A model generated the notes under the pieces. The model was not told where the DNA came from and did not search any database. It saw nothing but the letters and a program-made list of their open reading frames with translations. 48,393 nt of DNA from Actinomycetota bacterium (GTDB lineage Bacteria > Actinomycetota > Actinomycetes > Streptosporangiales > Streptosporangiaceae): NCBI GenBank assembly GCA_027314595.1, contig DAHVAN010000081.1, positions 1 through 48,393 on the forward strand, read 5' to 3'. Of this stretch, positions 6,804 through 32,713 are shown piece after piece. The stretch's first letter is position 1; each line of letters starts with the position of its first letter. The translations under genes were made by a program, and so were the position numbers.

Positions 6804-7111
6804 TGTCCCAACGCCTTCTACACGATTCACGCAGCGATCCGCGAGCGTTATGCCTGGTTGCGACACTTCACGAGCGCGTCGCCTGTCGGTACCGGTGATC
6901 CTACTTCATGTAGGAGGCGTAAGAACAACAAAACATCACGCGAGTACGGCAAGGTTCCCGCCCGCTAATGATCACTCGGCCCGTGCCGATTGCCCAACGG
7001 CGCCAGGGATTAGTTCCGGTCTCTCACGGCCTCTCATAGACAGCGTCGGTGGTACAGACCATATCGGCCGGACATCGGCGCGTCTAGGTTCGGGCTGCGG
7101 GAGAGTGGGCT
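6804..7111. promoter_or_regulatory. Divergent control region with inverted repeat
   Basis: This 308-bp stretch separates the minus-strand SRPBCC gene from the plus-strand FAAL-like gene. It contains an inverted repeat CCTAC-TTCAT-GTAGG at 6900-6914, a possible operator, and a TAGGTT box at 7085-7090 that could be a -10 element for the ligase. No convincing small gene was seen. Confidence 0.4.
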
Positions 7112-8761
7112 ATGACTGATCTGTGGGAACTGGTGTGTGCAGGCTACGGGCCGCACATGACGCTGACCGTGCCTGGGCGTGGCTATAGCGCGCCCATGAC
7201 CGCCATCTTGCGGGCGGCGGAGGGTACCGCCGGGCATATCGAACAGGTGGCAGCTGGCCGTCAGCCGGGGCGCGTCGGGCTCCTGCTCGACAACGGCGAG
7301 CCCTGGGTCCGAGGGCTGCTCGCGCTCTGGCGTCTTGGCGCGACGGCTGTGCCGCTGCCGCTGCCAGCGGGTTTCACCGGGCCTGCCGCCTACCTGGCGC
7401 AAGTTGGAGACATCTGCGCCGATGCCGGCCTGGACGCCATCCTCGTGGACTCCTCCACCGTCCTGGCCGCGAGCCTTGGCCGGATAGGCCCCGCGCTGAT
7501 CGACATAACCGACCCGATGGCGGGGTTCGCGCCGCCGGCTGGCGGCGCCCGGCTCCGTGGCAGTGCCGTCATCCAGTACACCTCAGGTAGCACGTCCCGG
7601 CCCAAGGGGGTCGTGCTGACGCAGGACAACGTGATGGCCGGAATTGAGATGCTCTGGCGGGCAACCGGATCCAGGCAGGGGGATTCGCTCGGCCTGTGGC
7701 TTCCGCTTTACCACGACATGGGGTTGTTCTCGCTGTTGAGCGCCCTGGTGCATGGCATGTCGCTGTCGCTGTGGAGGCCCCGCGAGTTCATCCGCCGGCC
7801 CATGGAGTGGCTTAGGCAGTTCGCGGCCGCTGGCTGCACGACAACCACGGCGCCGAACTTCTTCTACGACATCCTGGCGGAGGCGGCACGCGAAGGTGTG
7901 CCCGATGACATCGACCTGTCCGCATGGCGAATAGCCGTCAACGGCGCGGAGCCGGTCAGGCCTCGCACGCTGGCGGCATTTACTGAGGCGTTCGCCGGGT
8001 GCGGGCTCAGGCCGGGGTTGCTCAGGCCCGCGTACGGACTGGCAGAGGCTACGCTGCTCGTCTGCATGGTCCCGCCCGGCGATGAGCCCCGGAGCCTGCG
8101 GCTGGAGCGATCGCACACCAGCGCCGGCGCGCGCGTCCGGTTGGCGGCGAGCGATGACGATGGTGCGCGCACCGTCGCGTCCTGCGGCCGGCTGGTCCCG
8201 CCCATGCGACTGCGGATACGAGACGGTGATGGACAAGACTGCCCGGACGGCGTGGTCGGCGAGGTGCAGATCGCCGGACCCTCGGTCACGGCGGGGTACC
8301 TGGGTGTCGAGGCGCCGGCGCAGCCGTTCACGTGCGACGGGTGGCTGCGGACCGGCGACCTCGCCTTCATGTGGGAAGGCGAGGTGTATCTGGTTGGCCG
8401 GATCAAGGACATGATTGTCATCCGGGGGGTGAACTACTACCCGGAAGATGTCGAAGAGGTCGTCCGCGCGGTGCCCGAGGCCCGCGGCCTTTGCGCCGCG
8501 TTCGCCTGGGTGGACGAAGAGGACGAGCGCATCGTGGTGCTCTGGGAAACGCAGCTCGGCGCCGAGGCCGCCGCGACGACCAACGTCGCGATACGCGGAC
8601 GGATCCGGGAGCACCTCGGCCTGGACGCCGTCGATGTCGTGGCCGTGCCGCCCCGGACGATCCAGGTCACCAGTTCCGGGAAGGTCAAGCGCGCTCAGAC
8701 GCGTGAGGCCTGGCGCGGGCGGCCCACGGGAAACGACCGGGATGGCTCGGTAAGTGGCTAG
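7112..8761 (+). CDS. Fatty-acyl-AMP-ligase (FAAL)-like adenylate-forming enzyme
   Basis: The 549-residue protein starts at ATG 7112 after a GGGAGAG ribosome-binding site. It has the adenylation core motifs in order: YTSGSTSRPKG (about 156-166), PLYHDMGL, NGAEPVRP, YGLAEATL, GWLRTGDLAF, GRIKDMIVIRGVNYYPEDVE and the terminal SSGKVKR lysine motif. The YHDMG and NYYPEDVE strings and the length are typical of FAALs, which make acyl-adenylates and pass them to acyl carrier proteins rather than CoA. The FAAL-specific insertion cannot be verified by eye. The gene overlaps the following SRPBCC gene (GTG 8754) by 8 bp, so the two are probably translationally coupled. It may feed a fatty or aromatic acid to one of the carriers at 14.7-16.3 kb. 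Confidence 0.87.
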   Translation: MTDLWELVCAGYGPHMTLTVPGRGYSAPMTAILRAAEGTAGHIEQVAAGRQPGRVGLLLDNGEPWVRGLLALWRLGATAVPLPLPAGFTGPAAYLAQVGDICADAGLDAILVDSSTVLAASLGRIGPALIDITDPMAGFAPPAGGARLRGSAVIQYTSGSTSRPKGVVLTQDNVMAGIEMLWRATGSRQGDSLGLWLPLYHDMGLFSLLSALVHGMSLSLWRPREFIRRPMEWLRQFAAAGCTTTTAPNFFYDILAEAAREGVPDDIDLSAWRIAVNGAEPVRPRTLAAFTEAFAGCGLRPGLLRPAYGLAEATLLVCMVPPGDEPRSLRLERSHTSAGARVRLAASDDDGARTVASCGRLVPPMRLRIRDGDGQDCPDGVVGEVQIAGPSVTAGYLGVEAPAQPFTCDGWLRTGDLAFMWEGEVYLVGRIKDMIVIRGVNYYPEDVEEVVRAVPEARGLCAAFAWVDEEDERIVVLWETQLGAEAAATTNVAIRGRIREHLGLDAVDVVAVPPRTIQVTSSGKVKRAQTREAWRGRPTGNDRDGSVSG

Positions 8762-9305
8762 CGGGAACACATCCGGTAGCGGCCAGGATCCGGAACCGGA
8801 TCCGATGCTCCGGCTGCGCCTCGCGACAGCGGCGCTTGACGGGGCCGTATGCACGCAGGGACACATCCCTTTCCCGCCGGGCCAAGTCTGGGATGTGCTA
8901 GGCGACCTGGAGGGCGAACTGCCGCGCATAGTCCCGTTGATGCGGTCGTTCCGTATCATCGGTATCGACGACCGCGTCATGCGCACGCACGCGACCAGTG
9001 TCCTGGGATGCCGGGCCTACTTCGATGTCAGGCTGCGGGACAGGTTCCTTCTCATGCAGAGCAGGTGCGTGGCGGTCGGCGTGGCAGTCAGCCCCGAGCG
9101 GGCGGGGACTCGCCTGATGCTGGTGTTCTGGATGCCCAGGCCGCGGCAGGCACGGGCACGGGCGGCATTCGCGACGCTGCTCGCGGCACGCTCGCGGGTC
9201 CTGATCGAGCGCCTGGACCGCAGGTTGCGGACGGGCGGCCCGGGGCGGGGGCAGGTGTCAGGTCCAGGCCCGGCGGAAGATGCGCCGGGCACGAAACAGC
9301 CGTGA
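8754..9305 (+). CDS. SRPBCC (START/polyketide-cyclase-like) protein B
   Basis: The 183-residue protein begins at GTG 8754, overlapping the ligase stop. The SRPBCC-like part (about 25-165) shows HIPFPPGQVWDVLGDLEGELPR, CRAYFDVRLRDRFLLMQSR and AGTRLMLVFWM. It aligns with the protein at 6333-6803 over nearly its whole length, so the two arose by duplication. A Gly/Pro-rich tail ends the chain. Its last 48 bp overlap, tail to tail, the 3' end of the ECF sigma gene. Coupling to the FAAL-like gene suggests it handles the ligase substrate or product; this is inference. Confidence 0.72.
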   Translation: MASGNTSGSGQDPEPDPMLRLRLATAALDGAVCTQGHIPFPPGQVWDVLGDLEGELPRIVPLMRSFRIIGIDDRVMRTHATSVLGCRAYFDVRLRDRFLLMQSRCVAVGVAVSPERAGTRLMLVFWMPRPRQARARAAFATLLAARSRVLIERLDRRLRTGGPGRGQVSGPGPAEDAPGTKQP

Positions 9306-9782
9306 CCGGACTGTCCCGACAGGCACTTCAAGCAGGTGGCTGACCGACTGCTCGTCCAGGCCCTCTATGTCCCTGAGCACGAGCACCGCCCGATGCTCGG
9401 GGGACAGCCTGCGCAGGACGTCGTTGATGTCGACGATAAGCTCCGCGGACCCAGGCTGGGGTATCTCGGCCAGTTCAGCCTGGGAGATCCGGTTATTGCG
9501 GGCAGCCACCCTGACCGCCTCCCGGGTCGCGATGGCGCGCACCCATCCGAACAGCGCCGAGGGCTCCTTGAGCTGCCGGATGCGGCGGAAGATCGCGATC
9601 ATTGCTTCCTGCGTGGCATCAGGCCCGTCCTGCATGGCGATCGATCCGCACAACCGGCTGACATACGGGGCGAGCAGGTCCAGCAATTCATCCATGGCGA
9701 GCACGTCGCCATTTTGTGCCCGCAGCACTATGGCGGTTGTCTCGTCGTTGCCCTGTCTGCCCTGAGCGAGCCTATCTTCCAT
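9258..9782 (-). CDS. ECF-type RNA polymerase sigma factor
   Basis: The 174-residue protein from ATG 9782 has a GGAG box six bases upstream; an ATG at 9794 is possible but lacks one. Sigma region 2 is visible as LLDLLAPYVSRLCGSIAM and ATQEAMIAIFRRIRQL plus FGWVRAIATREAVR. Region 4 reads LSPEHRAVLVLRDIEGL, then SVSHLLEVPVGTVRSRLFRAR, a clear helix-turn-helix. No anti-sigma gene adjoins it: its 3' neighbour is convergent and its 5' neighbour is a broken phosphopantetheinyl transferase. The AT-rich stretch at about 9879-9905 may carry its promoter. It is a candidate cluster-situated regulator. Confidence 0.92.
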   Translation of the reverse strand: MEDRLAQGRQGNDETTAIVLRAQNGDVLAMDELLDLLAPYVSRLCGSIAMQDGPDATQEAMIAIFRRIRQLKEPSALFGWVRAIATREAVRVAARNNRISQAELAEIPQPGSAELIVDINDVLRRLSPEHRAVLVLRDIEGLDEQSVSHLLEVPVGTVRSRLFRARRIFRRAWT

Positions 9783-9860
9783 GGTGCGCTCCATAAAGTC
9801 GCTGGTCGTGCAGGATGGAGCTGTCGCCTCAGCTGTCCCCGGCCGTTTCCAAAGACGCCG

Positions 9861-10369
9861 CTAGGTCCACCAGGCCTCAGATTCTTCATAGATATTTTTA
9901 ATAGCGGCAGGGACGTGGCAGACATGGATTGCCATGTCGGGCACGCCCGCGGCGCGGCGATGGCGATGCCGGCGGAGTGGCTGATGGATCCTACGGCCGA
10001 GGCCGGCATGCGAGGGCGGCGTCCGGAAAACCCGATTGGGCCGCCCGGGTCGAGGCCGATGCCAGCAAGCCCGTTATGCAGTGCCCTGCGACCGATCAGA
10101 AAGTCACTCCTGCGTTCGGGGACGAGGCGAGTTGCCAGGCGGTACTCCTCGGGTGAGGTGCGCACGGCCTCCCGATCCCAGAGTGAGGCGATGCCGAACC
10201 CAACGTCGGCGCCTCGCCGGCGGCGGTCGAGCAAGGCGCGGAGAATGGTCGCGCGGTCGGCGGGCGCGGTCGGCGGGCAACGGCCGGTACCTGGTACGTC
10301 GCGTTTATGACCGGCGGTCCGGCAGGTCGCGGGGTCGGTGAAGGTCAGTGCTGTACGGTCCGTAGCCAT
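9861..10369 (-). pseudogene. Broken Sfp-type 4'-phosphopantetheinyl transferase
   Basis: From ATG 10369 (AAGGCGGAAG ribosome-binding site) about 140 codons match the N-terminal half of Sfp/EntD-type transferases: VPERRSDFLIGRRALHNGL, GRRPRMPASAVGSISHSAGIAIAA. The homology then stops near nt 9950. In the -1/+1 neighbouring frame a short continuation, PDMAIHVCHVPAAIKNIYEE, looks like a degraded version of the GIDVE metal-binding strand, and it ends at a stop at 9861-9863. The normal C-terminal half with the Mg-binding Asp/Glu and the ExxxK motif is missing. Full-length enzymes run about 220-250 residues. The frameshift plus truncation indicate loss of function. Such an enzyme would have been needed to prime the two carrier proteins of this cluster. 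Confidence 0.68.
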
Positions 10370-10674: not shown

Positions 10675-12897
10675 TCACAGGTCGGCTGAAACCGGCTCGC
10701 CGGTCGGCGTCGTGGTGCTGGGGCGTTCGGCGAGCGATGGTGCCGGGAGCCAGCCCAGCCAGCGCGGCAGGAGCCAGTTCGCCTCGCCGAGCAGCTGCAT
10801 GCAGGCAGGAAGCAGCACCGTGCGGACAATGGTGGCATCGATAAGCACGGCGGCGGCCATGCCGAGGCCTGCCTCCTTCATGGACAGCTCCGGGGTCGTG
10901 CCGAAGACGGCCGCCACGGCGATCATCACGACGGCCGCGCTAGTGATCACTCCGGCGCTGCTGGTGACGCCCTCGCGGATGGCCTGCGCTGTGGTGAGCC
11001 CGCGGCTGCGCGCTTCCCTGACCCGGCTGACCACGAACACGTGGTAGTCCATGGATATGCCGAACAGGATCACGAACATGAACAGCGGCACCCACGAGGT
11101 AATGCCGCCGTTCGTGGTGAAGCCGAGCAGGCCGGCTCCCAGCCCGTCTTGGAAGACCAGGACGACCAGCCCGTAGGCGGCGCCTACCGAGGCTATGTTC
11201 AGCAGCAGCGTCAGGCCGGCGATGGTCACTGAGCTGAACGCCGTCAGCATCATGAGGAAGGTGAAGATGAGCACGAAGGCGGCCACCAGCGGTGCGGTCT
11301 TGGCGAGTTGCGCGGCGGTGTCCACCGATATTGCCGTGGTTCCGGTGACGGCTACCGTGGCGTCTTTCGCGCCGGTGAAGGCGGCCGGGATGACATCGGT
11401 CCTCAGTACGGCCAGGGCGTTCTCCGACCGCTGATCGGTGCCGTTGCCCGCTAGCCCCACTGTCACCAAGGCGATGGTGCGCCGGGGATTGACCTGGCTG
11501 GTAACCGCGGGGCTGAAGTCACCGGCGTGTCGGATGATGCCCTGGCGCAGGGCCGCAATCGCCGCCTTCACCGGCTCGGCGCTCACGTCGGGCGCGGCCA
11601 CCACGATCTGGGCTGGCGCCGCGCTGTCGGGGAAGCTCTGCTGTAGCTGCTGATAGGTGCGCAGCACCGGCAGCTGGCTGGCGCTGAGGTCGGCAAGGCC
11701 GGAGTTCGACAGCCTGAGTCCGAAGGCGGGTGATGCCAGGGCGCCAAGCGCCGCCGTGGCGATCGCGAGCGCTACGACGGGACGGCGCAGGACGCTCCCG
11801 ACAACGGCCGCCATCATGCCGCCGCGGCGCACGCTGGCACGGCGCCTTCGCAGCGGCAGGCGCCCTTTGTCGACCCGGTCGCCGAGCAGGGACAGCACCG
11901 CGGGCAAGACGGTCACCGATCCCACCACCGCCATCGCGACCGCGATGATGGTGGCCTGCGCCATCCCGTCCTCGATGCCCTTGCGGGTGAAGAACAGGCC
12001 CGCCAGGGCGATGATGACGGCCGTGCCGGAAATCAGCACCGAGCGTCCCGAGGTGGCGGCCGCCGCTTCCACAGCCGCCGTGCTCGGCTTGCCCGCTGAT
12101 CGTTCCTCGCGGTAACGCCGCAGGTAGAACAGGGAGTAGTCGACTCCTACGGCGATGCCGATCAGTGTCATCACCGACTTGCCGTTGATGTCGACGTTGA
12201 TGAGATAACTGGCCAGCGCGACCATACCGCCGGCGCCGATCACCACCGTCGCCGCGAGCAGCAGCGGCAGCACGGCCGCGACCGCCGCGCCGAAGGCCAG
12301 CAGCAAGATCACCAGGGTTACCGGGAATGAGTACATCTCCGCGGTGGCGTAGTCCTTGTTCAGCTTGTCGTTATAGAGCTTGCTGAATGTGGCGTCGCCG
12401 AACGGCGCAATCTCGATGCCTGGGTGCCGGAGCTGCACCGCGGAGAGCGCGTCAAGCAGCGGTCCCACCCGGGAGGGAGCGGTGCTGGCCTGGCCGGTCA
12501 TCTCGTAACTGACCAGGACAGAATGGCGGTCGGCGGATATCTCGTCAGCGTTTTGCGGCAGCAGGGGCGAGGCCACCGCGAGCGTCAGGCCGCTGCGCTG
12601 CAATGTGCTGACGGTGTCACGGATAGCGGACAGGAAGGCAGGGGCGCCAACCGAAGCGGGGCTGTGCAGGAACACGCCCTCCTGCGACGGCAGATCGAAC
12701 CCTGCCCGGTCCAGCATCTGCTGAGCTTGCCGGGATTGCCCGTTGGTCATCTCCACCGCGGTCAGCCCGTGCGTGCCTGACCACTGGCCGGCTATGACCG
12801 CCACGATGACCAACGCCAGCCATAGGCCGACGGCCATCGCGCGGTGGGAAGCGCTCCAGCGTCCTATCGTGGCGGCGATGTTGCGGTTGCCTCGCAC
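10675..12897 (-). CDS. MMPL/RND-family membrane transporter
   Basis: The 740-residue protein starts at GTG 12897 behind an AGGAGA site. One N-terminal membrane helix (about 20-37) is followed by an extracytoplasmic loop. A first helix bundle (about 180-350) contains GIAVGVDYSLFYLRRYREE. A second large loop and a second bundle (about 525-700) contain MFVILFGISMDYHVFVVSRVREARSRG; the duplicated G-x-x-x-DY-x-FxxxRxRE motif is diagnostic for MMPL proteins. Relatives such as mycobacterial MmpL export lipids and hydrophobic products using proton motive force. It is transcribed divergently from the carrier-protein operon and probably exports the cluster product or confers self-protection. It is somewhat shorter than the large MmpL lipid exporters. 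Confidence 0.92.
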   Translation of the reverse strand: MRGNRNIAATIGRWSASHRAMAVGLWLALVIVAVIAGQWSGTHGLTAVEMTNGQSRQAQQMLDRAGFDLPSQEGVFLHSPASVGAPAFLSAIRDTVSTLQRSGLTLAVASPLLPQNADEISADRHSVLVSYEMTGQASTAPSRVGPLLDALSAVQLRHPGIEIAPFGDATFSKLYNDKLNKDYATAEMYSFPVTLVILLLAFGAAVAAVLPLLLAATVVIGAGGMVALASYLINVDINGKSVMTLIGIAVGVDYSLFYLRRYREERSAGKPSTAAVEAAAATSGRSVLISGTAVIIALAGLFFTRKGIEDGMAQATIIAVAMAVVGSVTVLPAVLSLLGDRVDKGRLPLRRRRASVRRGGMMAAVVGSVLRRPVVALAIATAALGALASPAFGLRLSNSGLADLSASQLPVLRTYQQLQQSFPDSAAPAQIVVAAPDVSAEPVKAAIAALRQGIIRHAGDFSPAVTSQVNPRRTIALVTVGLAGNGTDQRSENALAVLRTDVIPAAFTGAKDATVAVTGTTAISVDTAAQLAKTAPLVAAFVLIFTFLMMLTAFSSVTIAGLTLLLNIASVGAAYGLVVLVFQDGLGAGLLGFTTNGGITSWVPLFMFVILFGISMDYHVFVVSRVREARSRGLTTAQAIREGVTSSAGVITSAAVVMIAVAAVFGTTPELSMKEAGLGMAAAVLIDATIVRTVLLPACMQLLGEANWLLPRWLGWLPAPSLAERPSTTTPTGEPVSADL

Positions 12898-13112
12898 TTG
12901 CGCGTCTCCTGTTCTCCGCCCCGGGCCGCTAGCCTGGCTCGGCCGCGGCTGAGCCGGCTCTCGTAAGGAGGAGGAGGAGCCGCGGCATCAGAACGTTCCG
13001 TCGCTTTCCCGTGCCCGCCCGTCCGTTGCCGCTTTTTCCCGGATCACGGGGAACGCCGCCCGCCCGCGGGGCCTCCTAAAGAGCGATGTCCTTCGCGGAA
13101 AGGGAGAACCGC
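12898..13112. promoter_or_regulatory. Divergent promoter region for MMPL and carrier-protein operons
   Basis: The 215-bp gap between the two divergent starts must hold both promoters. A purine-rich run AAGGAGGAGGAGGAG lies near 12965-12980 without a start codon at ribosome-binding distance. No clear -35/-10 pair or long palindrome could be picked out by eye. Confidence 0.4.
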
Positions 13113-14717
13113 ATGCCTTCAACTGTCGACCTCAATACCGATGTGCTGGCCACACTGCGACCGAGCGCGCCGTTCGGGGCGATGCCGGGCCTGGCCGCGG
13201 ATAAGTTCCCTGACGCGCCGTTCCTCACCGACGGGGCATGGCCGATCGCCGGCCGCACCGTCACCACCGCCGGTGAGCTGGCCGGTGTCGTGGACGACTT
13301 CGCCGACCGGTTGTGGGCGGCGGGCGTGCGGGCCGGTGACGTGATCGCGGTCATCCAGCGCAACCACGTCGAGGTCGAGGCAGCGATGTGCGCCATCGGG
13401 AAGATCGGCGCCCTCCCCGCGCTGTTGCACCCCGCCATGGATCCGGGCGAGATGCTGGAGTGCCTCGCCCGGCTGGGCACTGCCCGCGTCCTGGTGGATG
13501 CCGATGGGCTCGCCCACCTCATGGGTGTCAGGAACGCGCTGCGATCGCTGGCGGTACGGATAATCTGCTGGTCGGAAACGAACATGGACTGGGTTGTGCC
13601 GGCGGTCGAGCGGGGCCATCACGTGGCCAGCCCGCGCGGCGACGACGAGTGGTTCGTCATCACCCATTCCTCCGGCACCACCGGGACGCCGAGGCTGGCC
13701 GCGCACTCAACCCGGTCCCTGTTCGGGATGGTCGCGCCCAACGTTATGATCATGCGCGCTCAGTACGACAGCCATGATCTGTCTGCCAGGCACCTGTCGT
13801 GGGTGCATGCCCGCACGATCGCGGGCATGCTGGCCACCCTGGAGACGGGGACGTCGGCGCTCGCCATCACCGATCCACGGCCCGCGCACGTCAAGGACGT
13901 CTTGCTACGGCACCGCCCGACGGCACTGGAGACCCACCCCAACATCTTTATCCAGTGGGAGGTGCTGGCCGACGACCCGGACCGGCCGCTCGCGTCGGTG
14001 GAGCGCTTCGTGAGCACGTTCGACGCGATGCACCCGCGTACGGTGCGCACGCTGCTGGCAGGGTCGGACAAGCCCGGCGCGCATTATCTGCAGGCCTACG
14101 GCCAGACCGAGTCGGGGCCGGTCACGCTCGGCATCATCGGGCGCGACCAGGCACCTGCCTACTCGCCGCGTAACGTCGGCTACACCGGTCCCGGCTATGA
14201 GGCGAGGGTGGTCGACCCAGGAGGCAACCCCCTTCCCGCCGGTGAGATCGGGCAGCTGCAGACCAGGTCACGTGGCCGTATGCGGGGGTACGTCGGTGAG
14301 GACGTCCCGATGATCGCCGACGACGAGTGGTGGCCGATGGGGGATGTCGGCCGGATGCTTCCCGATGGGGCAGTGGAGCTGCTGGACCGGGTGGCAGATC
14401 ACGTCGATGGCACCGATAGCCTGCTGGAGGTCGAGGACTCGCTGCTTGACCGGCTGCCAGAGCTGGTGGAACTGGTGCTGGTCCGCACGCGCGAGGACGG
14501 CGGCCTTGTCGCCATCGCCTGCCCGCGGGCCGGCGGCGACCGCCGCGCCGAGCGGTTTGACAAGGCCGTGGCCGAGCTTGGTTTCCGCGAGCCGATCCCG
14601 GTGCGGTTCTGGGACTGGGAGGCGCTGCCGCTGACCGGTACCTACAAGGTCCGTCGCGGCGTCTTGCGCCGCAGGCTCGCGGCATGGGCGGCGGCGGCCG
14701 GCCAGGAGAAGTCGTGA
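13113..14717 (+). CDS. AMP-dependent acyl ligase 1 (adenylate-forming enzyme)
   Basis: ATG 13113 is chosen (534 residues) because GGAAAGGGAGAA sits just upstream; an ATG at 13086 lacks a good site. Adenylation motifs are present but non-canonical: THSSGTTGTPR at about 183-195 (Arg where most have Lys), a YGQTES adenine-binding motif near 329-334, PMGDVG in place of TGD, and a terminal TYKVRR lysine motif near 510-515. It activates a carboxylic acid as an adenylate and probably loads a carrier or CoA. It is a close paralogue of the ligase at 25046-26761; both share ETHPN/ECHPN and TFDA-HPRT. It overlaps the next gene, a carrier protein, by four bases, so that carrier is its likely partner. The substrate is not deducible. 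Confidence 0.85.
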   Translation: MPSTVDLNTDVLATLRPSAPFGAMPGLAADKFPDAPFLTDGAWPIAGRTVTTAGELAGVVDDFADRLWAAGVRAGDVIAVIQRNHVEVEAAMCAIGKIGALPALLHPAMDPGEMLECLARLGTARVLVDADGLAHLMGVRNALRSLAVRIICWSETNMDWVVPAVERGHHVASPRGDDEWFVITHSSGTTGTPRLAAHSTRSLFGMVAPNVMIMRAQYDSHDLSARHLSWVHARTIAGMLATLETGTSALAITDPRPAHVKDVLLRHRPTALETHPNIFIQWEVLADDPDRPLASVERFVSTFDAMHPRTVRTLLAGSDKPGAHYLQAYGQTESGPVTLGIIGRDQAPAYSPRNVGYTGPGYEARVVDPGGNPLPAGEIGQLQTRSRGRMRGYVGEDVPMIADDEWWPMGDVGRMLPDGAVELLDRVADHVDGTDSLLEVEDSLLDRLPELVELVLVRTREDGGLVAIACPRAGGDRRAERFDKAVAELGFREPIPVRFWDWEALPLTGTYKVRRGVLRRRLAAWAAAAGQEKS

Positions 14718-15004
14718 GCGCCGCGCCGGGGCTCGGCCAGCGGCCGGAGGCTGACGAGGATGTTCTGTCCATAGTGCTGGATGCGCTGGCGACGCACGCC
14801 GGGGTTGATCCCAGCCGGATCGGCCTGAATGAGCCGCTGTCCGCGATACCGGGAATCGAGTCCGTGACGGCGCTGCGTGCGATCACCGCGGTTGAAGACG
14901 CATGCGGCGTGCTGATACCCGATGATTTCCTGTTCGAGACTGCCACCGTGGCGCAGTTCTGTCATCAGGTAGCCGAACTGCGCCGCGCCAGGCCCGCCGG
15001 GTGA
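14714..15004 (+). CDS. Discrete acyl/peptidyl carrier protein 1
   Basis: From GTG 14714, which overlaps the ligase stop as GTGA and has GGAGAAG upstream, the protein has 96 residues. It has the four-helix carrier pattern: VLSIVLDALATHAGVDPSRIGLNEPL, then PGIESVTAL and a C-terminal FETATVAQF helix. Ser50 in GIESV is the expected phosphopantetheine site, though the usual preceding Asp is Glu here. It is translationally coupled to ligase 1 and precedes the transglutaminase-like gene by four bases. It would hold the acyl group made by ligase 1. It needs a phosphopantetheinyl transferase, and the local one is broken. Confidence 0.82.
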   Translation: MSAAPGLGQRPEADEDVLSIVLDALATHAGVDPSRIGLNEPLSAIPGIESVTALRAITAVEDACGVLIPDDFLFETATVAQFCHQVAELRRARPAG

Positions 15005-15008
15005 CGCG

Positions 15009-16037
15009 GTGCGGACCCAGAGGAACGCCGATGCCGTCTCGCTCACCAGGGCACTGGAGCGGTTCCGGTTCGTGCCTGCCGACATCGCGTGTTATGACAC
15101 CGATGTTTCCAGCGCCGCACGGACCCTGCGGGTCGGACCGGGGCAGGTAACTGAACTCGCCGCCGCAGGGCTGCCGCACTGCGACGACCCACGGCGTGGA
15201 CCGCTGTTCGACTACGACGACGTCATGAACGTGGGCAAGTTCTCGGGGACCGGGATCACCGGACCTGAGCTTGCGCTCAGGTTCCTGATGCGATTCTCGG
15301 CGATGCCGGAGGACACCTGGCATTCACCGCGACGCTGGCTGGTCACGGTGGCGGCGGCCGGGCGTGCCGGGCGTGCCGGGCCTGCGGCGCCCGGCGGGCA
15401 GGTGTCGCTGCGCGGGCCCGATCTCACCGCGCCCGGCATCGGCTATCTGAGTTCCCACAGGCTGGCGCCCGGGCTGATCCGGCCGACGGGCGCGGAATTC
15501 GAGTCGCGCCCCTATCAGGTTGCCGTTCGGATCACCGGCGCCCGGCACGTGATCGCCGACCCGCGGGTCCGTACGGCCTTCGACGACGTGGTGCAGCCGA
15601 TCGTGGACCGGTCGGTGGTGTTCCAGAGCGTCGCGGAGACGCTGCGTGCCGACCACCTCCGCGCGTGGCGGCTGGGCATGGCCGACTGCATGGTGGCCAG
15701 CAAGGTGCTGGCTGACCGGCTGCGTGATCTCGGGCTGCGGGCCAGAGTGCGCCGCGGCTATCTCCTTGGCCTGTACGGCAGCGATCACGCGTGGTGCGAG
15801 CTGGCCGAGGACGGCGAGTACAAGCCGCTGGACCCGATGTACTGCTACCTGGGACGGGTAGGCGCGCCGGATCTCGGGCTTCGCCCGTCGCCGGCGTTTG
15901 CGGTCGCGGCCTTCGGCGGACGGTTCAACCGGCTGCTGCCATTTCAGGGCGAACAGGGTGAGCCGCTGGTGTACCTGGACGGCCGCCCGGCCCCCTACTG
16001 GGCACTGGCGGGCATCAGCTCGCAGCCCTGTGAATGA
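15009..16037 (+). CDS. Transglutaminase-like cysteine acyltransferase/peptidase-fold protein
   Basis: The 342-residue protein starts at GTG 15009. The C-terminal half carries a transglutaminase core: GMADCMVASKVLADRLRDLGL with Cys227, GSDHAWCEL with His260, and YKPLDPMY with Asp275, spaced as in the Cys-His-Asp triad of that superfamily. The N-terminal 200 residues are not recognised; they contain an FDYDDVMNVGKFSGTG segment and a Gly/Ala/Arg-rich linker at about 115-130. Transglutaminase homologues can form amide bonds between carrier-bound substrates, as AdmF does in andrimid biosynthesis. This gene lies between two carrier proteins, each beside an AMP ligase, so an amide-forming or transacylating role is attractive but inferred. 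A hydrolytic role remains possible. Confidence 0.75.
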   Translation: MRTQRNADAVSLTRALERFRFVPADIACYDTDVSSAARTLRVGPGQVTELAAAGLPHCDDPRRGPLFDYDDVMNVGKFSGTGITGPELALRFLMRFSAMPEDTWHSPRRWLVTVAAAGRAGRAGPAAPGGQVSLRGPDLTAPGIGYLSSHRLAPGLIRPTGAEFESRPYQVAVRITGARHVIADPRVRTAFDDVVQPIVDRSVVFQSVAETLRADHLRAWRLGMADCMVASKVLADRLRDLGLRARVRRGYLLGLYGSDHAWCELAEDGEYKPLDPMYCYLGRVGAPDLGLRPSPAFAVAAFGGRFNRLLPFQGEQGEPLVYLDGRPAPYWALAGISSQPCE

Positions 16038-16091
16038 CCTCCTGCGTTCATCTGTAAGCGGTCTGGTACCGGCCGGAGGAGAGGAGAGGAT

Positions 16092-16331
16092 GTGGAAAAC
16101 GTTCATGGCTACGCCCGGGAACTGGTGGCCGCGTGCGTGGACCTGCCGGGAATCTTGGACAGTATCGGCGACGACGACGACCTCGTGTCCCGCGGCGTCG
16201 ACTCGGGTGAGATCCTCAACGTGGCTCTGCGCTGCGAACAGGTCCTTGGCCGGTCCCTGACCGATGGCGAGTTGTCCCGGCTCACGAGCATCAGCGCGGT
16301 AGCTGAGCTGGTCCAGACGGCGGTGCCCTGA
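16092..16331 (+). CDS. Discrete acyl/peptidyl carrier protein 2
   Basis: This 79-residue protein begins at GTG 16092 behind a strong GGAGGAGAGGAG site. It has the carrier-protein layout with phosphopantetheine serine Ser38 in GVDSGEI and a C-terminal LTSISAVAELVQTAV helix. The acidic DSIGDDDDL loop before the serine is typical. An overlapping ATG two bases earlier is out of frame. It ends one base before the next ligase gene, its probable loading enzyme. It differs considerably from carrier 1, which suggests that the two carriers present different substrates. Confidence 0.85.
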   Translation: MENVHGYARELVAACVDLPGILDSIGDDDDLVSRGVDSGEILNVALRCEQVLGRSLTDGELSRLTSISAVAELVQTAVP

Positions 16332-16332
16332 C

Positions 16333-17871
16333 ATGTGGCTGCGCCAAATCCTTGACCGCAACTCGGTGCGTTATCCAGACCGCGTCGCGCTGCGGGATTC
16401 CGGGCGCGACATCGAGTGGCGCGTGCTGGCGGCGGAGGTGAGGGCGCTGGCCGTGCAGCTGCGCCAGGCGGTCCCACCAGGCGGGCGGGTGCTTGTGCTG
16501 AGCGCGAACCGCGCCGAGATGATCGAGACCTACTTCGCCTGCGCCGAGGCTGGCGTCATCGCTGTACCGCTCAACCCGAACCTTACGGATGCGGAGATCG
16601 GACCGATCCTCGGGTCGGTGGAGCCCGCGCTCGCGGTCGCCGACCGTGCCTCGATCGCGCGACTGGCCGATACCTGGCCGCGAATGCCGACGCTGTGCAC
16701 CGAGGATGTGGCCGGCCTGCCGCGGGCCGGCCACGACGGCAGCCGGCCTGCCGGGGAGGCTGCCGGCCAGGTGAGGCGTCCGCTGATGATCCTGCACACC
16801 TCGGCGACGACCGGCCGGCCGAAGGGAGTCGTCTACGACGATCAGGTGATCCGGTCCAATGCCGCGTCCTGGCTGGCTGACGTCAGCATCGAGCCCGGCA
16901 CGGTCTTTCTCAACGCCTGTCCGCTGTTCCACGCGACGATGCTCATCGCGTTCCATTACCTGGCCGCGGGGGCGACCGTCTGTATGCTCGACCGGTTCAC
17001 GCCGCAGGGGACGCTGGCCGCCATCGGGCGATGGCGGGTCAACCATGCCTATCTGGTGCCGGCGATGGTGCGGCTCGTGCTTGAGGCCAAGGCGCTGCCT
17101 GACACCGACGTAAGCTCACTGAGGCTGCTGGTCCACGGGGCGGCGCCCATGTCAGCGCCGCTGGCCGCGGCCGCCGGGACCGGCCTCGGCGCTGGCCTTC
17201 TGGTGAGTTACGGATCGACCGAGGCGGGCGGCCCGTTCGCCTCCGTGCATCCTGACGACCGGCCCGGTCAGATGCCCGTGCCTGGCGCCTCATGCGTCGG
17301 AATGCCCCTCCCGGGCTACTCGATCGGCCTGCGCCGCACGGACGGCCAGCCTGCGGGGCATGGCGAAGCCGGTGAGATCCGCATTACGGGCGCCGGGCTG
17401 ATGACGGGCTACTGGCAAGATCCCGCGGCCACCGCAGCTGTGCTCACCGACGGCTGGCTGAATACGGGTGACCTCGGGATGCTCGACAACCGCGGCTATC
17501 TGTGGCTCATCGACCGGCGAGACGACCTGATCCTTCGCGGCGGGCAGAACGTCTACCCAGCGGAGATCGAGCACGTGCTGTACCGCTCTCCCGCCGTCGC
17601 CGATGTGGCCGTGGTGCCAGCCGAGTCCAGCGCCTGGGGTCAGAGCCCGGTGGCGTTCATACAGCCGACTCCCGATGCCAGCGAGAAAGCACTGGTAGCC
17701 GAGCTCATCCAGCGATGCGTGGATGAGCTGGCCAGCTACAAGCGGCCGAGCAAGTTCGTCGTCCTGGACAAGATTCCGCGCAGCCCCAGCGGCAAGATTC
17801 TGCGCCGGGAGCTGCGGGCTCAGCTCGGGAATCAGCCGGGCCAGCTGACAGATCAGGAGCAGAAGCTATGA
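16333..17871 (+). CDS. AMP-dependent acyl ligase 2 (acyl-CoA synthetase-like)
   Basis: The 512-residue protein has canonical class I adenylate-forming motifs: HTSATTGRPKG (about 155-165), CPLFHATM, YGSTEAGG (about 293-300), GWLNTGDLG, DRRDDLILRGGQNVYPAEIE and SPSGKILRREL with the catalytic lysine. It is closest in style to ordinary acyl-CoA synthetases and distinct from ligase 1 and the 25-kb ligase. It starts one base after the stop of carrier 2 and overlaps the di-iron oxygenase gene by four bases. It probably activates a second acid and loads carrier 2 or CoA. Confidence 0.9.
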   Translation: MWLRQILDRNSVRYPDRVALRDSGRDIEWRVLAAEVRALAVQLRQAVPPGGRVLVLSANRAEMIETYFACAEAGVIAVPLNPNLTDAEIGPILGSVEPALAVADRASIARLADTWPRMPTLCTEDVAGLPRAGHDGSRPAGEAAGQVRRPLMILHTSATTGRPKGVVYDDQVIRSNAASWLADVSIEPGTVFLNACPLFHATMLIAFHYLAAGATVCMLDRFTPQGTLAAIGRWRVNHAYLVPAMVRLVLEAKALPDTDVSSLRLLVHGAAPMSAPLAAAAGTGLGAGLLVSYGSTEAGGPFASVHPDDRPGQMPVPGASCVGMPLPGYSIGLRRTDGQPAGHGEAGEIRITGAGLMTGYWQDPAATAAVLTDGWLNTGDLGMLDNRGYLWLIDRRDDLILRGGQNVYPAEIEHVLYRSPAVADVAVVPAESSAWGQSPVAFIQPTPDASEKALVAELIQRCVDELASYKRPSKFVVLDKIPRSPSGKILRRELRAQLGNQPGQLTDQEQKL

Positions 17872-18998
17872 CTGAACCCGATTACACGGATCCCGCGGTG
17901 CTGACGAACCTGGCCGGCGACTGGACGATTCCGCTCGGCGGCTATGCCACGCTGCAATGGGACTACGACCGGGTCAACGAGAAGATGCTTCGCCTCTACG
18001 TCCAGGGCAAGCAGCGGCAGTGGGACGCCGACGGCGTGCTGGACTGGGAGCGCGAGCCCGATCCAGCCAATCCGACAGGCATCCCCGACCAGTTCGTCTC
18101 TATCGCTGGCTCGGCGCTGTGGGACCGGCTGCCACCCGAGGAGCGCGCCCTCGCCCGGCGGCACGCGGCTGGCTGGCTGTATTCGCAGTTTCTTCATTCC
18201 GAGCAGTTTGCCCTCGTCGGCGTCGGCAGGGTGTGCGCGGCGGCATCCGATCTGGAGTCCAAGATGTTTGCGGCCACGCAGCTCATGGACGAGGCCAGGC
18301 ATGTGGAGGCATTCAACAGGTACATCAAGACGAAGATCATGTTGCGGTACCCGTACGCTCCGGCGCTGCGTTCTCTGCTTGAGCAGGTCATCTCCGAGGC
18401 GCGGTGGGACTTCGGGGTGCTCGCGGGCCACGTCATGGTGGAGAACATGGCGCTTGTCACCCACGCGCAGCATCGCGAACGCATGGGTGACCCGCTGGCA
18501 AGGGCACTGAGCGCCTATGTGGCCAGGGACGAAGCCCGGCACGTCGCCTTCGGGCGCCTGCTGCTCCGCCAGTACTATCCGCAGCTCACCCAGCGGGAAC
18601 TGCGGGAACGCGAGGCATTCGTGCTGGAGGGTTGCTGGGCATTGAAGTCGCGCTACGTGGACGACGATGTCTGGATTACCCTCGGGTTCGGCGAGCAGGC
18701 GATCGCGGCCGCTCGCCGGTCCCCAGTGTCCCGTGAGTTCCGCCGCCGGCTGTTCATGCGCCTGGTGCCGGGCTTGAAAGAGGTCGGGCTCTTCGGCCCG
18801 CGAATTCAGGAAGGGCTGGCTAAATTGGGCGTACTCGGCTTCGGTGATTTCGATGAGGAATCACTGCGGAAGCTGGACGAGCATGCGGTCGACAAGCTCG
18901 CGGCCGCGGACATCGCCGGGCGCAGGGAGGACATCGCCGCCACGGCGGAACTTGGAGCGGGACAGGTGGCTGATGCGCCGTCCGCGATGCCGCGATGA
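17868..18998 (+). CDS. Ferritin-like di-iron oxygenase
   Basis: The 376-residue helical protein has a complete duplicated di-iron ligand set: Glu112 (HSEQF), Glu142 and His145 (first DEARH), Glu192 (MVENM), Glu222 and His225 (second DEARH). This E...ExxH twofold pattern is that of ribonucleotide-reductase R2-like, ferritin-like oxygenases. Family members hydroxylate, desaturate or N-oxygenate substrates, sometimes while bound to carrier proteins. The gene overlaps the ligase 2 stop (ATGA) and the next hotdog gene (ATGA), so it is firmly within the operon. Its likely role is oxidation of a carrier-bound acyl or amino group, but the exact reaction is unknown. An external electron donor would be needed, and no ferredoxin gene is seen nearby. 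Confidence 0.87.
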   Translation: MTEPDYTDPAVLTNLAGDWTIPLGGYATLQWDYDRVNEKMLRLYVQGKQRQWDADGVLDWEREPDPANPTGIPDQFVSIAGSALWDRLPPEERALARRHAAGWLYSQFLHSEQFALVGVGRVCAAASDLESKMFAATQLMDEARHVEAFNRYIKTKIMLRYPYAPALRSLLEQVISEARWDFGVLAGHVMVENMALVTHAQHRERMGDPLARALSAYVARDEARHVAFGRLLLRQYYPQLTQRELREREAFVLEGCWALKSRYVDDDVWITLGFGEQAIAAARRSPVSREFRRRLFMRLVPGLKEVGLFGPRIQEGLAKLGVLGFGDFDEESLRKLDEHAVDKLAAADIAGRREDIAATAELGAGQVADAPSAMPR

Positions 18999-19543
18999 GC
19001 CCGGCGTCCGCGGCCCTGGGAGGGCATGACATCGCGGTGCCCCCCGGCTTCCCCGGCCCCGGCGAGGACTCCGCCGCACGCCGGTACCTGACGTCCCTCA
19101 TCGACGGCACCGCCGCGCCGCCACGGTGCCTGGAGCTGCTCATGATGCCTGTCCCGGCGGGCACTACCTGGTCCTGCGGCCGGATTAGCGCCCGCATGCC
19201 CGTCGATGACGTGCTGGCCCTGACACCCGGAGTGGTCTTCGGGGGTTACGTGATGTGCCTGGCTGACCACTTCGCGAGCCTGGTGATGCTGACCGTGCTG
19301 CCGGATGGGGCACGGGTGCTCACGGCCGCTGTCGACACCGCCTTGCTCGCGCCTCTGGCGCCCGGCGAGGCGTCGGTCGAGGCGTCGGTCACCAAGCTGT
19401 CGGCCAGGCGCGCTCTTGCCGAGGTGACCATCCGGCAAGGGCGCGGTGTCACCAGCCGCAGCGTGGCCGAGCAGTTCATCAAGCGTCCCGGGCCGGCCGG
19501 CGACACCCGCCGGCTCCGGAACGAATACCCGGGCACCAGCTAG
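18995..19543 (+). CDS. Hotdog-fold (PaaI-like) thioesterase
   Basis: The 182-residue protein overlaps the di-iron gene by four bases. Residues about 55-165 read as a hotdog domain: TPGVVFGGYVMCLADHFASLVML (the central helix with a GG-Y--LAD pattern), then VLTAAVDTALLAPL and VEASVTKLSARRALAEVTI strands. Related enzymes hydrolyse acyl-CoA or acyl-carrier thioesters. The N-terminal 45 residues are not recognised. In this operon it could release the product or edit mischarged carriers. The typical catalytic Glu/Asp of PaaI may be replaced by Asp in the LADHF segment. Confidence 0.75.
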   Translation: MSPASAALGGHDIAVPPGFPGPGEDSAARRYLTSLIDGTAAPPRCLELLMMPVPAGTTWSCGRISARMPVDDVLALTPGVVFGGYVMCLADHFASLVMLTVLPDGARVLTAAVDTALLAPLAPGEASVEASVTKLSARRALAEVTIRQGRGVTSRSVAEQFIKRPGPAGDTRRLRNEYPGTS

Positions 19544-19550: not shown

Positions 19551-20444
19551 ATGGCGACTTCACACCATGCCTCGCGGCGCGAGATACCCCCGGCAGCCGG
19601 GGTGCGTCATCGCTTTGTCCGGGTTGGCGATGCACGGATCCACATCGCCGAGTGCGGCGACGGCGACCCGGTGCTGCTGCTGCACTCATTTCCCCAGCAT
19701 TGGTACGCATGGCGGAAGGTAATCCCTCTGCTAGCCCGCGACTACCTGGTGATCTGCCCCGATTTTCCCGGATCCGGCTGGTCCGAGAGCTCACCTGACG
19801 GCTATGACACGAGCGCGCGGGCCGCGGCCGTGCTGGGCATCATGGACAGCCTCGGGCTCGCGCGCGCCCGCGTCATCGGCCACGCGTGGGGAGCCGTAGC
19901 CGGGTTCCGGCTCTGCCTGAAGTCACCGGAGCGGGTCAGTCATTTCCTCGCGCTGAACGCTTCGCACCCGTGGCCGCTCAGGCGGACAGCGGCCGCCGAG
20001 GCCTGGCGGCAGTGGCACACGGCATTCTGGGAATATCCCGGGATAGGCCGTCAGGTACTGCGGCACTGGCCGGCGTTCACCCGTTTCATGTTCCGTCATT
20101 GGGCGGCCGATTCTTCGGCGTTGACCGCTGAAGCAATTACTGAATATGTCGAGTCCAGCCGGGAGAAGGAACATGCCCGGGCCGGTGAGAAACTGAACTG
20201 GCAGTATGTTCTGCACGATATCCCCGGCCTCCTGCTGCGGCGCGATCGCGAGGTGCTTACCGTCCCGACTGTGATAATTGCCGGCGAGCGCGATGTCGTT
20301 ATACCCCCCCGGTTGTGCCGCGGCGGCAGAGGCCACGCCGCCGAACTCAGCGTAGTGGTGGCGCCCGGGGCAGGTCACCTGCTGCCGGAGGAACGCCCTG
20401 AGCTGATCGCCGAGACAGCGCGAGTTCTGTTTGCGCGGCAGTAG
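19551..20444 (+). CDS. Alpha/beta-hydrolase-fold protein lacking the nucleophile
   Basis: ATG 19551, seven bases after the previous stop, gives 297 residues. The chain resembles epoxide hydrolase/haloalkane dehalogenase proteins: HSFPQHWYAW (45-54), DFPGSGWSES (71-80), the nucleophile elbow VIGHAWGAVAGF (108-119), GERDVVIP (245-252) and PGAGHLLPEERPE (272-284). The nucleophile position, normally Asp in GHDWG, is Ala112 (codon GCG at 19884-19886). The presumed acid Asp248 and base His276 are kept. Without a nucleophile, classical ester or epoxide hydrolysis is unlikely. It may act as a lyase, a cyclase or a structural partner, or catalyse through its His alone. Confidence 0.85.
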   Translation: MATSHHASRREIPPAAGVRHRFVRVGDARIHIAECGDGDPVLLLHSFPQHWYAWRKVIPLLARDYLVICPDFPGSGWSESSPDGYDTSARAAAVLGIMDSLGLARARVIGHAWGAVAGFRLCLKSPERVSHFLALNASHPWPLRRTAAAEAWRQWHTAFWEYPGIGRQVLRHWPAFTRFMFRHWAADSSALTAEAITEYVESSREKEHARAGEKLNWQYVLHDIPGLLLRRDREVLTVPTVIIAGERDVVIPPRLCRGGRGHAAELSVVVAPGAGHLLPEERPELIAETARVLFARQ

Positions 20445-20554
20445 CTGGATAAGCCTCAGCTCCGCGGATTTCGATAAACGCCGGGGAACGGATGGAGTTG
20501 TCCAAGCCTCTAAATATCGGGAGATGTTTCCGACCGAGTCAAAAGGAGGCGGCA

Positions 20555-21889
20555 ATGCAGCAGATGTTGGCCGTAAACACAGGCGCCAACGAGCGCAGCA
20601 TGGATGCCATCCGGCAGGTTATCGCCGGGGGATCGAGCAGCAATATGCGAGCGAAGGGTTTCGTGATCCCCATCGTGGTCCGGCGGGCGTCGGGCGCCAG
20701 GATATGGGACATGAACGGCGCGGAGCTTATCGATGTGAATATGGGATACGGCCCGCATCTTTTCGGTTATGCCGATCCGCAATACACCGAAGACATCGCG
20801 GCGCAGTTGCGCGACGGGGCGATGACCGGCCTGCCGCACCGGCTCGATCTAGAGGCGGGGGAGCTCATCGCCCAGCTGGTGCCCTCGATGGAACAGGTCA
20901 GGTTCGCCAATTCCGGGACAGAGGCGCTGATGTCCGCGGTCCGGCTGGCCCGGATGAGCACGGAGCGGACCCTGATCGTCACTTTCGCTGGCCACTACCA
21001 CGGCTGGAGCGATACCCTGCTGCGGCGTCCAGTCATCCCGGGTGCGCTGCCCGCGAGCCTGGACCCTGGCTGCGAGCCTGGCGCGCCGGGAATGCTTCCC
21101 GAGACCCTGTCGCACACCATCCAGATACCGTGGAACGATCCGGACAGCCTGCGCGCGGTCTTCGCCAGGCACGGCGAGCGGATCGCCGCCGTGGTGTGCG
21201 AGCCAGTGCTCGCCAATGCCGGCGTCGTGCCTCCGGCCCCGGGCTTGCTGGCGATGGCGCGCGAGATGAGCGCCGCGCACGGCGCCTTTCTCATATTCGA
21301 CGAGGTCATCACCGGGTTCCGGGTCGCGCGAGGAGGTGCGCAGGCGCTGTATGGCGTCACCCCCGACCTGACTGTGCTGTCAAAGGTTCTCGGCGGCGGC
21401 TTCCCCGTGTCGGCATTCGGCGGCACGAGGGCGACCATGGCGCCGCTGGCAAGGAACGAGGCATTCCATGCGGGTGTCTACGCCGGCAACCATGCGGCCA
21501 TGGCGGCGGTCGTCAGCATGCTGCGGAGGATCAGTTCAAGCTCAGACATATACGACAAGCTGGATGCCCTGGGTGCTTACGCGGAAAGCGAGGTCCGGAA
21601 GGTGTTCGCGGCCGCCGGGCTGCCAGTCTGGATCGGCCGGGCCGGCTCGCTGATGTCTGTCTCGCTGTCGACGCGGCGCCTGCGTCCCGAGCAGGAGACG
21701 GCAGAGGGCCCCGCGGCGACCGATTTCGTCCTGCACAGGGAACTCCAGGCGCGGTGCCAGCGGGGCGGGGTGTACTTCCACCCCAATCCATTCGAGCCGT
21801 GGTTCCTCAGCACATCGCACACGATCGAGGACATCAACACGGTCTGCGGGGTTATCAAGGACGCGCTATTGGAGATAGAGGACCTGTAG
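20555..21889 (+). CDS. Class III PLP aminotransferase (glutamate-1-semialdehyde aminomutase-like)
   Basis: ATG 20555 is preferred (444 residues) because AAAAGGAGG lies directly upstream; an ATG at 20492 would add 21 residues. Motifs include FANSGTEAL (PLP phosphate region), FAGHYHGW, AAVVCEPVLANAG, FLIFDEVITGFR with Asp249 for the pyridine nitrogen, and LSKVLGGGFPVSAFGG with Lys277 as the Schiff-base residue. The sequence resembles the GSA-aminomutase branch, but it lies in a secondary-metabolism operon and is not a haem gene by context. It probably installs an amine on an aldehyde or ketone, or moves one to a beta position. A 110-bp gap precedes it, and it is the last gene of the plus-strand operon. 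Confidence 0.92.
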   Translation: MQQMLAVNTGANERSMDAIRQVIAGGSSSNMRAKGFVIPIVVRRASGARIWDMNGAELIDVNMGYGPHLFGYADPQYTEDIAAQLRDGAMTGLPHRLDLEAGELIAQLVPSMEQVRFANSGTEALMSAVRLARMSTERTLIVTFAGHYHGWSDTLLRRPVIPGALPASLDPGCEPGAPGMLPETLSHTIQIPWNDPDSLRAVFARHGERIAAVVCEPVLANAGVVPPAPGLLAMAREMSAAHGAFLIFDEVITGFRVARGGAQALYGVTPDLTVLSKVLGGGFPVSAFGGTRATMAPLARNEAFHAGVYAGNHAAMAAVVSMLRRISSSSDIYDKLDALGAYAESEVRKVFAAAGLPVWIGRAGSLMSVSLSTRRLRPEQETAEGPAATDFVLHRELQARCQRGGVYFHPNPFEPWFLSTSHTIEDINTVCGVIKDALLEIEDL

Positions 21890-21990: not shown

Positions 21991-22024
21991 CTGACGAGCG
22001 GCTGTCACTGACGAGCGGCTGTCT
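21991..22024. repeat. 17-bp tandem duplication at the end of the minus operon
   Basis: CTGACGAGCGGCTGTCA (21991-22007) is repeated as CTGACGAGCGGCTGTCT (22008-22024), differing only at the last base. The second copy runs into the stop codon of the alpha/beta hydrolase gene on the minus strand. It is probably a recent slippage duplication. Confidence 0.6.
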
Positions 22025-22868
22025 AGGCCGGGGCTTGGCGCCCGAACGAGCGCAGTGCCTCGGCGAGCGGCTTTGGCTGGTCCAGGGGGATCAGGGTGTA
22101 GCTGTCCTCGATCTCGACGTAGCGCCCGCGAGGGAACTCGCCCGCGAGCCGACGGCCGTCTGCTGGCGGCATCAGCTTGTCGCCAGCCGCCCAGACGACC
22201 AGGACTGGGATCTGGACCGCGGCGAACTTTGCCGCGGCGCGGTTGAGCACACCGCGGTCACGGAAGATGCTGCGCAGGATCCGGACGGTATCGACGCGGA
22301 TCTCGGGCTGGTTCCAGACCGGCGCGAGCCAGCCCCGGACCGTTGCGTCGCCGCGCTTGGTCAGCCACCCGAAGGAGACGGGCATCCGGCGCATTGGCTT
22401 GAGCCGCAGCTGCTGCATGAACATCCCGAACAGCGCAGGCGGGAGCTTGCCCGTCAGGGCCAGGGTCCTGCCGCTGATCCCGGGCGGGAGATTGTCGTAG
22501 GTGTCGCAGGCGATCAGCACCGCCTTGCCGACCCGGCTGGGGTCCTCGGCGAGCACCAGCTGGACCAGCGCCCCCCCGGTGTCATTGCCGGCCAAGACGA
22601 CGTCGCGGAGATCGAGGGCGGCGAGAAACTCGATCACCAGCTTCGCCAGGCCGCTCATCGTGCGGTCGGCGCCGGCGGCCAGCGGCCGCCGGTGCCCGCC
22701 CAGCGGCAGGGTCGGCACCACGCAGCGGAACTGCTCCCGCAGCAGGGGGGTGACCTGGCGCCACAGCGACCCGTCCATCAGCAGTCCGTGCAGGAGAACC
22801 ACGACGGGAAGGTCCCGGCCGGTGTCCTCGTAGTCGATCTCGGCCGTGGGGAGCTTAACGGCGGGCAT
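22023..22868 (-). CDS. Alpha/beta hydrolase with Asp nucleophile motif
   Basis: The 281-residue protein starts at ATG 22868, overlapping the upstream gene by 14 bp. It has the oxyanion loop LLHGLLMDGSLW (25-36) and an AGNDTGG elbow (93-99), so the nucleophile is Asp96 as in haloalkane dehalogenase/epoxide hydrolase-type proteins. VVWAAGDKLMPP holds the usual acid strand. At the place of the catalytic His there is IEDSYTLIPLDQP, with no histidine. This string may be a trait of its subgroup rather than a defect. It is the last gene of the minus operon. Paired with the plus-strand hydrolase that lacks the nucleophile, it suggests non-standard chemistry. Confidence 0.85.
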   Translation of the reverse strand: MPAVKLPTAEIDYEDTGRDLPVVVLLHGLLMDGSLWRQVTPLLREQFRCVVPTLPLGGHRRPLAAGADRTMSGLAKLVIEFLAALDLRDVVLAGNDTGGALVQLVLAEDPSRVGKAVLIACDTYDNLPPGISGRTLALTGKLPPALFGMFMQQLRLKPMRRMPVSFGWLTKRGDATVRGWLAPVWNQPEIRVDTVRILRSIFRDRGVLNRAAAKFAAVQIPVLVVWAAGDKLMPPADGRRLAGEFPRGRYVEIEDSYTLIPLDQPKPLAEALRSFGRQAPA

Positions 22869-26761: not shown

Positions 26762-26820
26762 TGCGTTTCCCCCCTTCGGGGCTTGCGTTGATCGGTGGCC
26801 GGCGGTACGGGCCGGTGAGG

Positions 26821-29725: not shown

Positions 29726-29745
29726 GTGTCCCGGAACCTCCTGCC

Positions 29746-32711: not shown

Positions 32712-32713
32712 GC

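Follow-up and report, generated by a model that had tools for sequence, protein, structure and literature searches.

A candidate transglutaminase-centered two-carrier assembly line in a Streptosporangiaceae genome

Described relatives and the cassette

Carrier-based amide formation by transglutaminase-type enzymes rests on very few examples. In the andrimid pathway, the transglutaminase homolog AdmF is reported to form an amide between two carrier-bound units. Azaserine units are joined by a nonribosomal peptide synthetase (NRPS) Cy domain and Dob units by a polyketide synthase (PKS). Here, we describe a gene cassette in a 48,393-nucleotide stretch from an Actinomycetota bacterium of the Streptosporangiaceae (assembly GCA_027314595.1, contig DAHVAN010000081.1; this whole stretch is referred to as the window), in which a transglutaminase-like protein (TG) is encoded between two carrier proteins (CP1 and CP2) and two adenylate-forming ligases (ANL1 and ANL2). 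The locus resembles that of AdmF in combining a transglutaminase-class enzyme with two co-encoded carriers that flank it. It differs from the PKS/NRPS andrimid system in having no ketosynthase or condensation domain, in that one ligase is classed by sequence as a fatty-acyl-AMP ligase (FAAL), and in the AurF-family oxidase encoded alongside TG, as in almost all of its close relatives. By analogy, AdmF would be the nearest mechanistic precedent, and the window may put the AdmF-like principle to use in a new form.

The five-gene core (13086-17871, forward strand) runs ANL1, CP1, TG, CP2, and ANL2 (Table 1). This order had been proposed from the letters of the sequence in an original prediction, and all five open reading frames are real, with family matches. 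The four-base overlaps or very short gaps claimed for most joints are also borne out by measurement: ANL1/CP1, ANL2/oxidase, and oxidase/thioesterase overlap by 4 bases, CP1/TG and CP2/ANL2 are separated by 4 and 1 bases, respectively, and the exception is the TG/CP2 gap of 54 bases, which contains a purine-rich stretch. The longest CP1 reading frame begins at 14684, and the GTG at 14714 is the most likely start because it gives the overlap with ANL1 and fits the N-termini of orthologs. Starting the α/β hydrolase at the ATG at 19551 leaves no long overlap with the thioesterase. The carrier serines are conserved in both CP1 and CP2, and Pfam scans of the window genes scanned revealed no condensation or ketosynthase domain, as predicted.

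Table 1. Coordinates of the cassette and surrounding features in the window
Feature	Coordinates	Strand	Evidence
DUF3050 heme-oxygenase-like diiron protein	5281..6078	-	58% homolog near cassette in G434 copy 2
START/polyketide-cyclase-like protein	6333..6866	-	homology
FAAL, ANLb ortholog, predicted CP1 loader	7112..8761	+	best PDB match 3pbk 1.9e-67
START-like protein, paralog of 6333-6866	8754..9305	+	homolog near cassette in other genomes
ECF sigma factor	9258..9794	-	ortholog in type A loci
4'-Phosphopantetheinyl transferase (PPTase; carrier activation)	9728..10369	-	homologs in cassette neighborhoods
MMPL transporter	10675..12897	-	51-70% to cassette neighbors in several type A loci
ANL1, "type a" adenylate-forming ligase	13086..14717	+	Pfam AMP-binding 2.6e-42
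CP1, carrier protein	14714..15004	+	PP-binding 2.2e-8; serine motif GIESV
TG, transglutaminase-like, predicted amide former	15009..16037	+	Transglut_core 0.012; Cys227/His260/Asp275
CP2, second carrier protein	16092..16331	+	PP-binding 4.8e-6; serine motif GVDSGE
ANL2, "type c" acyl/aryl ligase, adjoins CP2, predicted CP2 loader	16333..17871	+	AMP-binding 7.9e-64 plus C-terminal domain
AurF-family ferritin-like diiron oxidase	17868..18998	+	Pfam AurF 7.2e-18
PaaI-type hot-dog thioesterase	18995..19543	+	family match
α/β Hydrolase	19551..20444	+	ortholog in most type A loci
HemL-like class III aminotransferase	20492..21889	+	not seen in type A flanks
Run: α/β hydrolase, uncharacterized protein, two flavin amine oxidases, ANL3, flavin monooxygenase, aldehyde dehydrogenase, TrpB-like, MFS (probably accessory)	22023..34675	-

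The triad proposed for TG, Cys227, His260, and Asp275, is invariant in all 28 aligned homologs, down to 21% identity. TG scores 16.3 bits against Pfam PF01841 (Transglut_core), under the curated cutoff of 23, and its kinship rests on fold because a phmmer search against PDB sequences gave no meaningful match. In an AlphaFold2 model (pLDDT 90.4, pTM 0.91), a helix-strand-strand core carries the triad: the helix begins at the Cys, the first of two successive strands holds the His, and the Asp follows directly after the second. A Foldseek search with this model, the type of search by which the original prediction could have failed, ranked 3isr first, a transglutaminase-like putative cysteine protease (E 5.3e-5, probability 1.00), followed by the transglutaminase 4xz7 (E 1.1e-3), a Streptomyces arylamine N-acyltransferase, and, lower down, the geldanamycin amide synthase; whole-chain TM-scores of the matches were low. 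On this confident model, we assign TG to the transglutaminase/arylamine-acyltransferase fold class. GdmF and the arylamine N-acyltransferases (8k51) share this Cys-His-Asp papain-like class and the amide formation predicted for TG, and their overlap with TG is partial, at about 90-120 aligned columns.

Two types of related loci

A scan of GTDB genomes with an alignment of close TGs, a check that the original prediction had proposed, returned 14 loci; a plasmid locus of Streptomyces sp. NBC_00536 and the locus of genome G618 were found apart. Twelve of the 14 scan loci, together with these two, constitute type A, in which one strand carries ANLa, ANLb, CP1, TG, CP2, ANLc, an AurF-family oxidase, and a PaaI thioesterase. 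The SID5910 contig stops before the PaaI gene, and the other type A loci show the full eight-gene order. The G618 identities match those of the NRRL S-87 locus (L070), so the two are probably one genome and distinct type A loci perhaps number 13, not 14. Type A orthologs are mostly 50-66% identical to the window proteins: ANL1 is type a (61% to NBC_00536 ANLa), FAAL is type b (51% to its ortholog), and ANL2 is type c (57%). The arrangement in the window reflects more than chance because the order is kept by orthologs at 14 further loci. One feature that sets the window apart from the orphan NBC_00536 plasmid locus and the 13 other type A loci is the position of ANLb, which lies between ANLa and CP1 there and is displaced upstream in the window. 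FAAL and a further ligase, ANL3 (25046-26761), were left out of the original prediction, which covered 13113-17871. Most type A loci also encode DAHP synthase, anthranilate synthase, and an acyl-CoA dehydrogenase, often with CreE and CreD genes, none of which is in the window; the CreD counterpart is a protein resembling nitrosuccinate lyase (604 bits). In many cases they also hold START, sigma factor, PPTase, and MMPL genes.

In the six type B loci (two from Actinomadura and four others), TG and the oxidase are followed by GDSL, AzsE-like, and hydrazinoacetate genes, which couples them to clusters of the azaserine, triacsin, and Dob type; the window has no hydrazinoacetate genes. These loci encode a Lys N-hydroxylase, the AzsE-like protein, and, where the stretch reaches, cupin-MetRS, and the hydrazinoacetate pathway's own ligase and carrier are seen where the fetched stretch covers them. 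ANLb and CP1 precede TG in five of the six, and within the fetched stretches none of the six has ANLa, CP2, or ANLc. Every examined locus with ANLa also has CP2 and ANLc. Because these three genes are either present together or all missing, comparison of the loci points to a fixed arm (ANLb-CP1) and an arm that can be exchanged. In the TG tree, the type B loci form one supported clade, and the window TG falls among type A at a position that the tree does not resolve.

Altogether, the cassette recurs in about 20 genomes from several actinobacterial families, mostly beside genes for making nitrite or hydrazine. A second cassette copy in genome G434 runs from ANLa to ANLc without the AurF-family oxidase and with a DUF3050 protein 58% identical to that of the window; its ANLa is apparently split, and an IS66 transposase adjoins.

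More distant TG relatives (L032, L033, L039-L043, and L094) adjoin a carrier, a PPTase, a diiron oxygenase, and a class-II tRNA-synthetase-like protein (PF00587) that may act as an amino acid:carrier ligase. Some of these loci also hold a nitronate monooxygenase, a picture that resembles glycine-nitronate chemistry joined to TG. Such (enteromycin) chemistry was considered for the window and dropped, as the diiron proteins of these distant relatives are of another class, with a third His. At L038, an α/β hydrolase-carrier domain fusion (8265-9365) adjoins a distant TG, with CP2 and ANLc homologs and an MMPL gene.

Ligase assignments and a predicted pathway

CP1 stands beside ANLb and CP2 beside ANLc in the 14 type A loci, and the type b ligase lies directly 5' of CP1 throughout type A and in five of the six type B loci. 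The window's type b ligase is identified as a FAAL by its PDB matches (3pbk, then FadD23, FadD32, and others). Because CP1 travels with the FAAL in orthologous loci, even where the ANL1 type is absent, FAAL is likely the partner of CP1, and ANL1 probably does not load this carrier. The original prediction had each ligase load its neighboring carrier; its two separate carriers flanking TG are present, whereas its choice of ANL1 as the CP1 loader was not supported. A scheme in which ANL1 loads CP1, ANL2 loads CP2, and TG joins the two aminoacyl or acyl units, with FAAL a separate accessory, would explain why ANL1 adjoins and translationally overlaps CP1 in the window and why it has its C-terminal catalytic Lys. 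We nevertheless regard this scheme as quite unlikely, given that ANLb separates ANLa from CP1 in orthologous loci, that ANLb-CP1-TG occurs without ANLa in five loci, and that the ligase tree separates ANLa and AvaA6-like ligases together from ANLb and ANLc.

In that tree, which was built without AvaA6, Tri17, and CreM themselves, ANLa and ANL3 group with AvaA6-like proteins (support 97/99). ANLa, the type to which ANL1 belongs, forms a distinct sister group to these proteins, which themselves fall below the family cutoff. ANL1 is about 22-28% identical to them and scores 83.4 bits against the AvaA6 family (NF058622), far below the cutoff of 975; structures of the triazene-forming Tri17, like AvaA6 a nitrite-using ligase, are two of its top PDB matches. 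ANL3, at 35% identity to ANL1, is a diverged further member of type a in the window and is encoded between two paralogous flavin amine oxidases. The same genome also encodes an AvaA6-like ligase outside the cluster (L098, contig C290: 7496-9097; 458 bits, below the cutoff).

NRPS adenylation domains keep an Asp at a pocket position where ANL2 has His. ANL2 has an acyl/aryl ligase pocket, and no cluster ligase has an NRPS α-amino-acid pocket; the aminoacyl units of the original prediction are thus not indicated. ANL2 resembles acyl-CoA and aryl-CoA ligases, and two amine oxidase genes, an aldehyde dehydrogenase gene, and a TrpB-like gene lie nearby, features that would suit ligases making CoA thioesters for catabolism or lipid metabolism beside a peptidase-like TG, with no assembly line. 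This explanation appears highly improbable in view of the two dedicated carriers, PPTase, and FAAL in an order conserved across families, and because the FAAL class is known to load carriers, not CoA.

The genes, their order and conservation, the triad, the fold class, and the ligase classes are seen directly; from them we predict the following scheme, including each of its reactions, its transfer direction, and its product, and we give about an even chance to the window encoding such a condensation-domain-free two-carrier assembly line. FAAL would place an aliphatic acyl group on CP1, and ANL2 would place a different, nitrogen-bearing carboxylic acid on CP2. TG would accept the CP1 acyl group on Cys227 and then acylate the nitrogen of the unit carried by CP2, so that an amide results. 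Oxidation of the product by the diiron oxidase, most likely at nitrogen, would come next, before release by the thioesterase or a hydrolase and export by the MMPL or MFS transporter. ANL1 would probably act within the second arm, on its nitrogen or carboxylate chemistry, much as the related AvaA6-type diazotases do. A PPTase encoded in the cluster is consistent with this scheme.

TG could instead shuttle an acyl group between the carriers as a thioester, in an AzsD/Tri13-like role, or release it onto a free amine in the manner of GdmF. The KASIII-like AzsD and Tri13 move HDA between two carriers (PMC10445470), and the geldanamycin amide synthase and arylamine N-acyltransferases are among the fold neighbors of TG. 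AzsD and Tri13, however, have a ketosynthase fold, unlike TG. TG's fold class is the one that AdmF uses for carrier-to-carrier amide bonds, and we consider shuttling or release unlikely.

Several observations weigh against carrier-to-carrier amide formation followed by oxidation. The fold class of TG spans hydrolases, transferases, and amide synthases, and fold alone cannot tell an acyltransferase from a hydrolase. FAAL stands 4 kb from CP1 in the window, the pocket motifs of ANL2 differ from those of type A, and the nitrogen nucleophile on CP2 is an assumption. The window holds no anthranilate-synthase gene. In the window oxidase and its close relatives, Val replaces a third His, at the position four residues ahead of the Glu of the final ExxH.

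Extending the amide-forming scheme to its relatives, TG and the FAAL-loaded carrier might constitute a condensation module that can be moved between pathways of reactive nitrogen chemistry, in which the papain-like Cys enzyme couples a constant acyl arm to interchangeable second arms, a proposal that we advance tentatively and with some doubt. If it is true, the second arms would be of a nitrite/anthranilate type, a hydrazinoacetate type, and the window's own type, and the cassettes would make a family of N-acyl, N-oxidized, or N-N natural products without condensation domains. As the cassette occurs in about 20 genomes and with second arms of two clearly distinct kinds, reconstituting it once would account for many orphan clusters and, if confirmatory, provide a compact, swappable alternative to condensation domains.

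Oxidase, nitrogen chemistry, and cluster bounds

The diiron oxygenase, thioesterase, and aminotransferase that had been noted downstream of the core are all present. The oxidase keeps the six canonical ferritin-like ligands, with its two E..ExxH half-sites aligned, and its model (pLDDT only 68) matches the CmlI and AurF folds. AurF and CmlI keep the third His, which is also present in the diiron proteins of L032 and L033; the corresponding Dob3 ligands are H225/E229/H232. Because this third His of AurF, CmlI, and Dob3 is missing, the sequence does not warrant the name AurF-type N-oxygenase, and we refer to the window protein as a putative oxidase. A DUF3050 protein is encoded near the cassette both in the window and at L090 (5582-6406), where the cassette copy lacks an AurF-family oxidase; the two proteins may substitute for each other.

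A search of the window genome found no CreE, an empty result that alone is weak proof, and none was found in S. lucensis; S. gossypii, SID5910, and FH025 gave strong matches. Because CreE occurs in some cassette genomes and was not found in others, the cassette does not strictly go with nitrite. In a nitrosuccinate-lyase search of the window's own genome, the matches were lyase-superfamily paralogs. The NBC_00536 nitrosuccinate-lyase-like protein (L031 27821-29617; 598 residues) aligns with the 466-position model as two disjoint segments, which points to an insertion or an annotation artifact.

We found no description of the TG cassette or its product in the literature searched, which omits most subscription journals, and this lends weak support to the original prediction's "possibly undescribed". 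A Nature 2026 survey of diazo clusters also takes in hydrazone clusters that encode additional FDO or HDO oxidoreductases; type B loci may therefore already stand there as orphans. Some orphan cassette clusters probably lie within the diazo/hydrazone clusters now being mined.

On the left, FAAL, the two START-like genes, and the minus-strand genes for the ECF sigma factor, PPTase, and MMPL transporter all have homologs in the cassette neighborhoods of other genomes. The right-hand bound of the cluster is set near 36 kb by the first of the housekeeping genes (trigger factor, ClpP, ClpX, and valS-like). Within the minus-strand run that precedes them, the TrpB-like pyridoxal-phosphate enzyme (31338-32711; 618 bits) neighbors the aldehyde dehydrogenase and the flavin monooxygenase.

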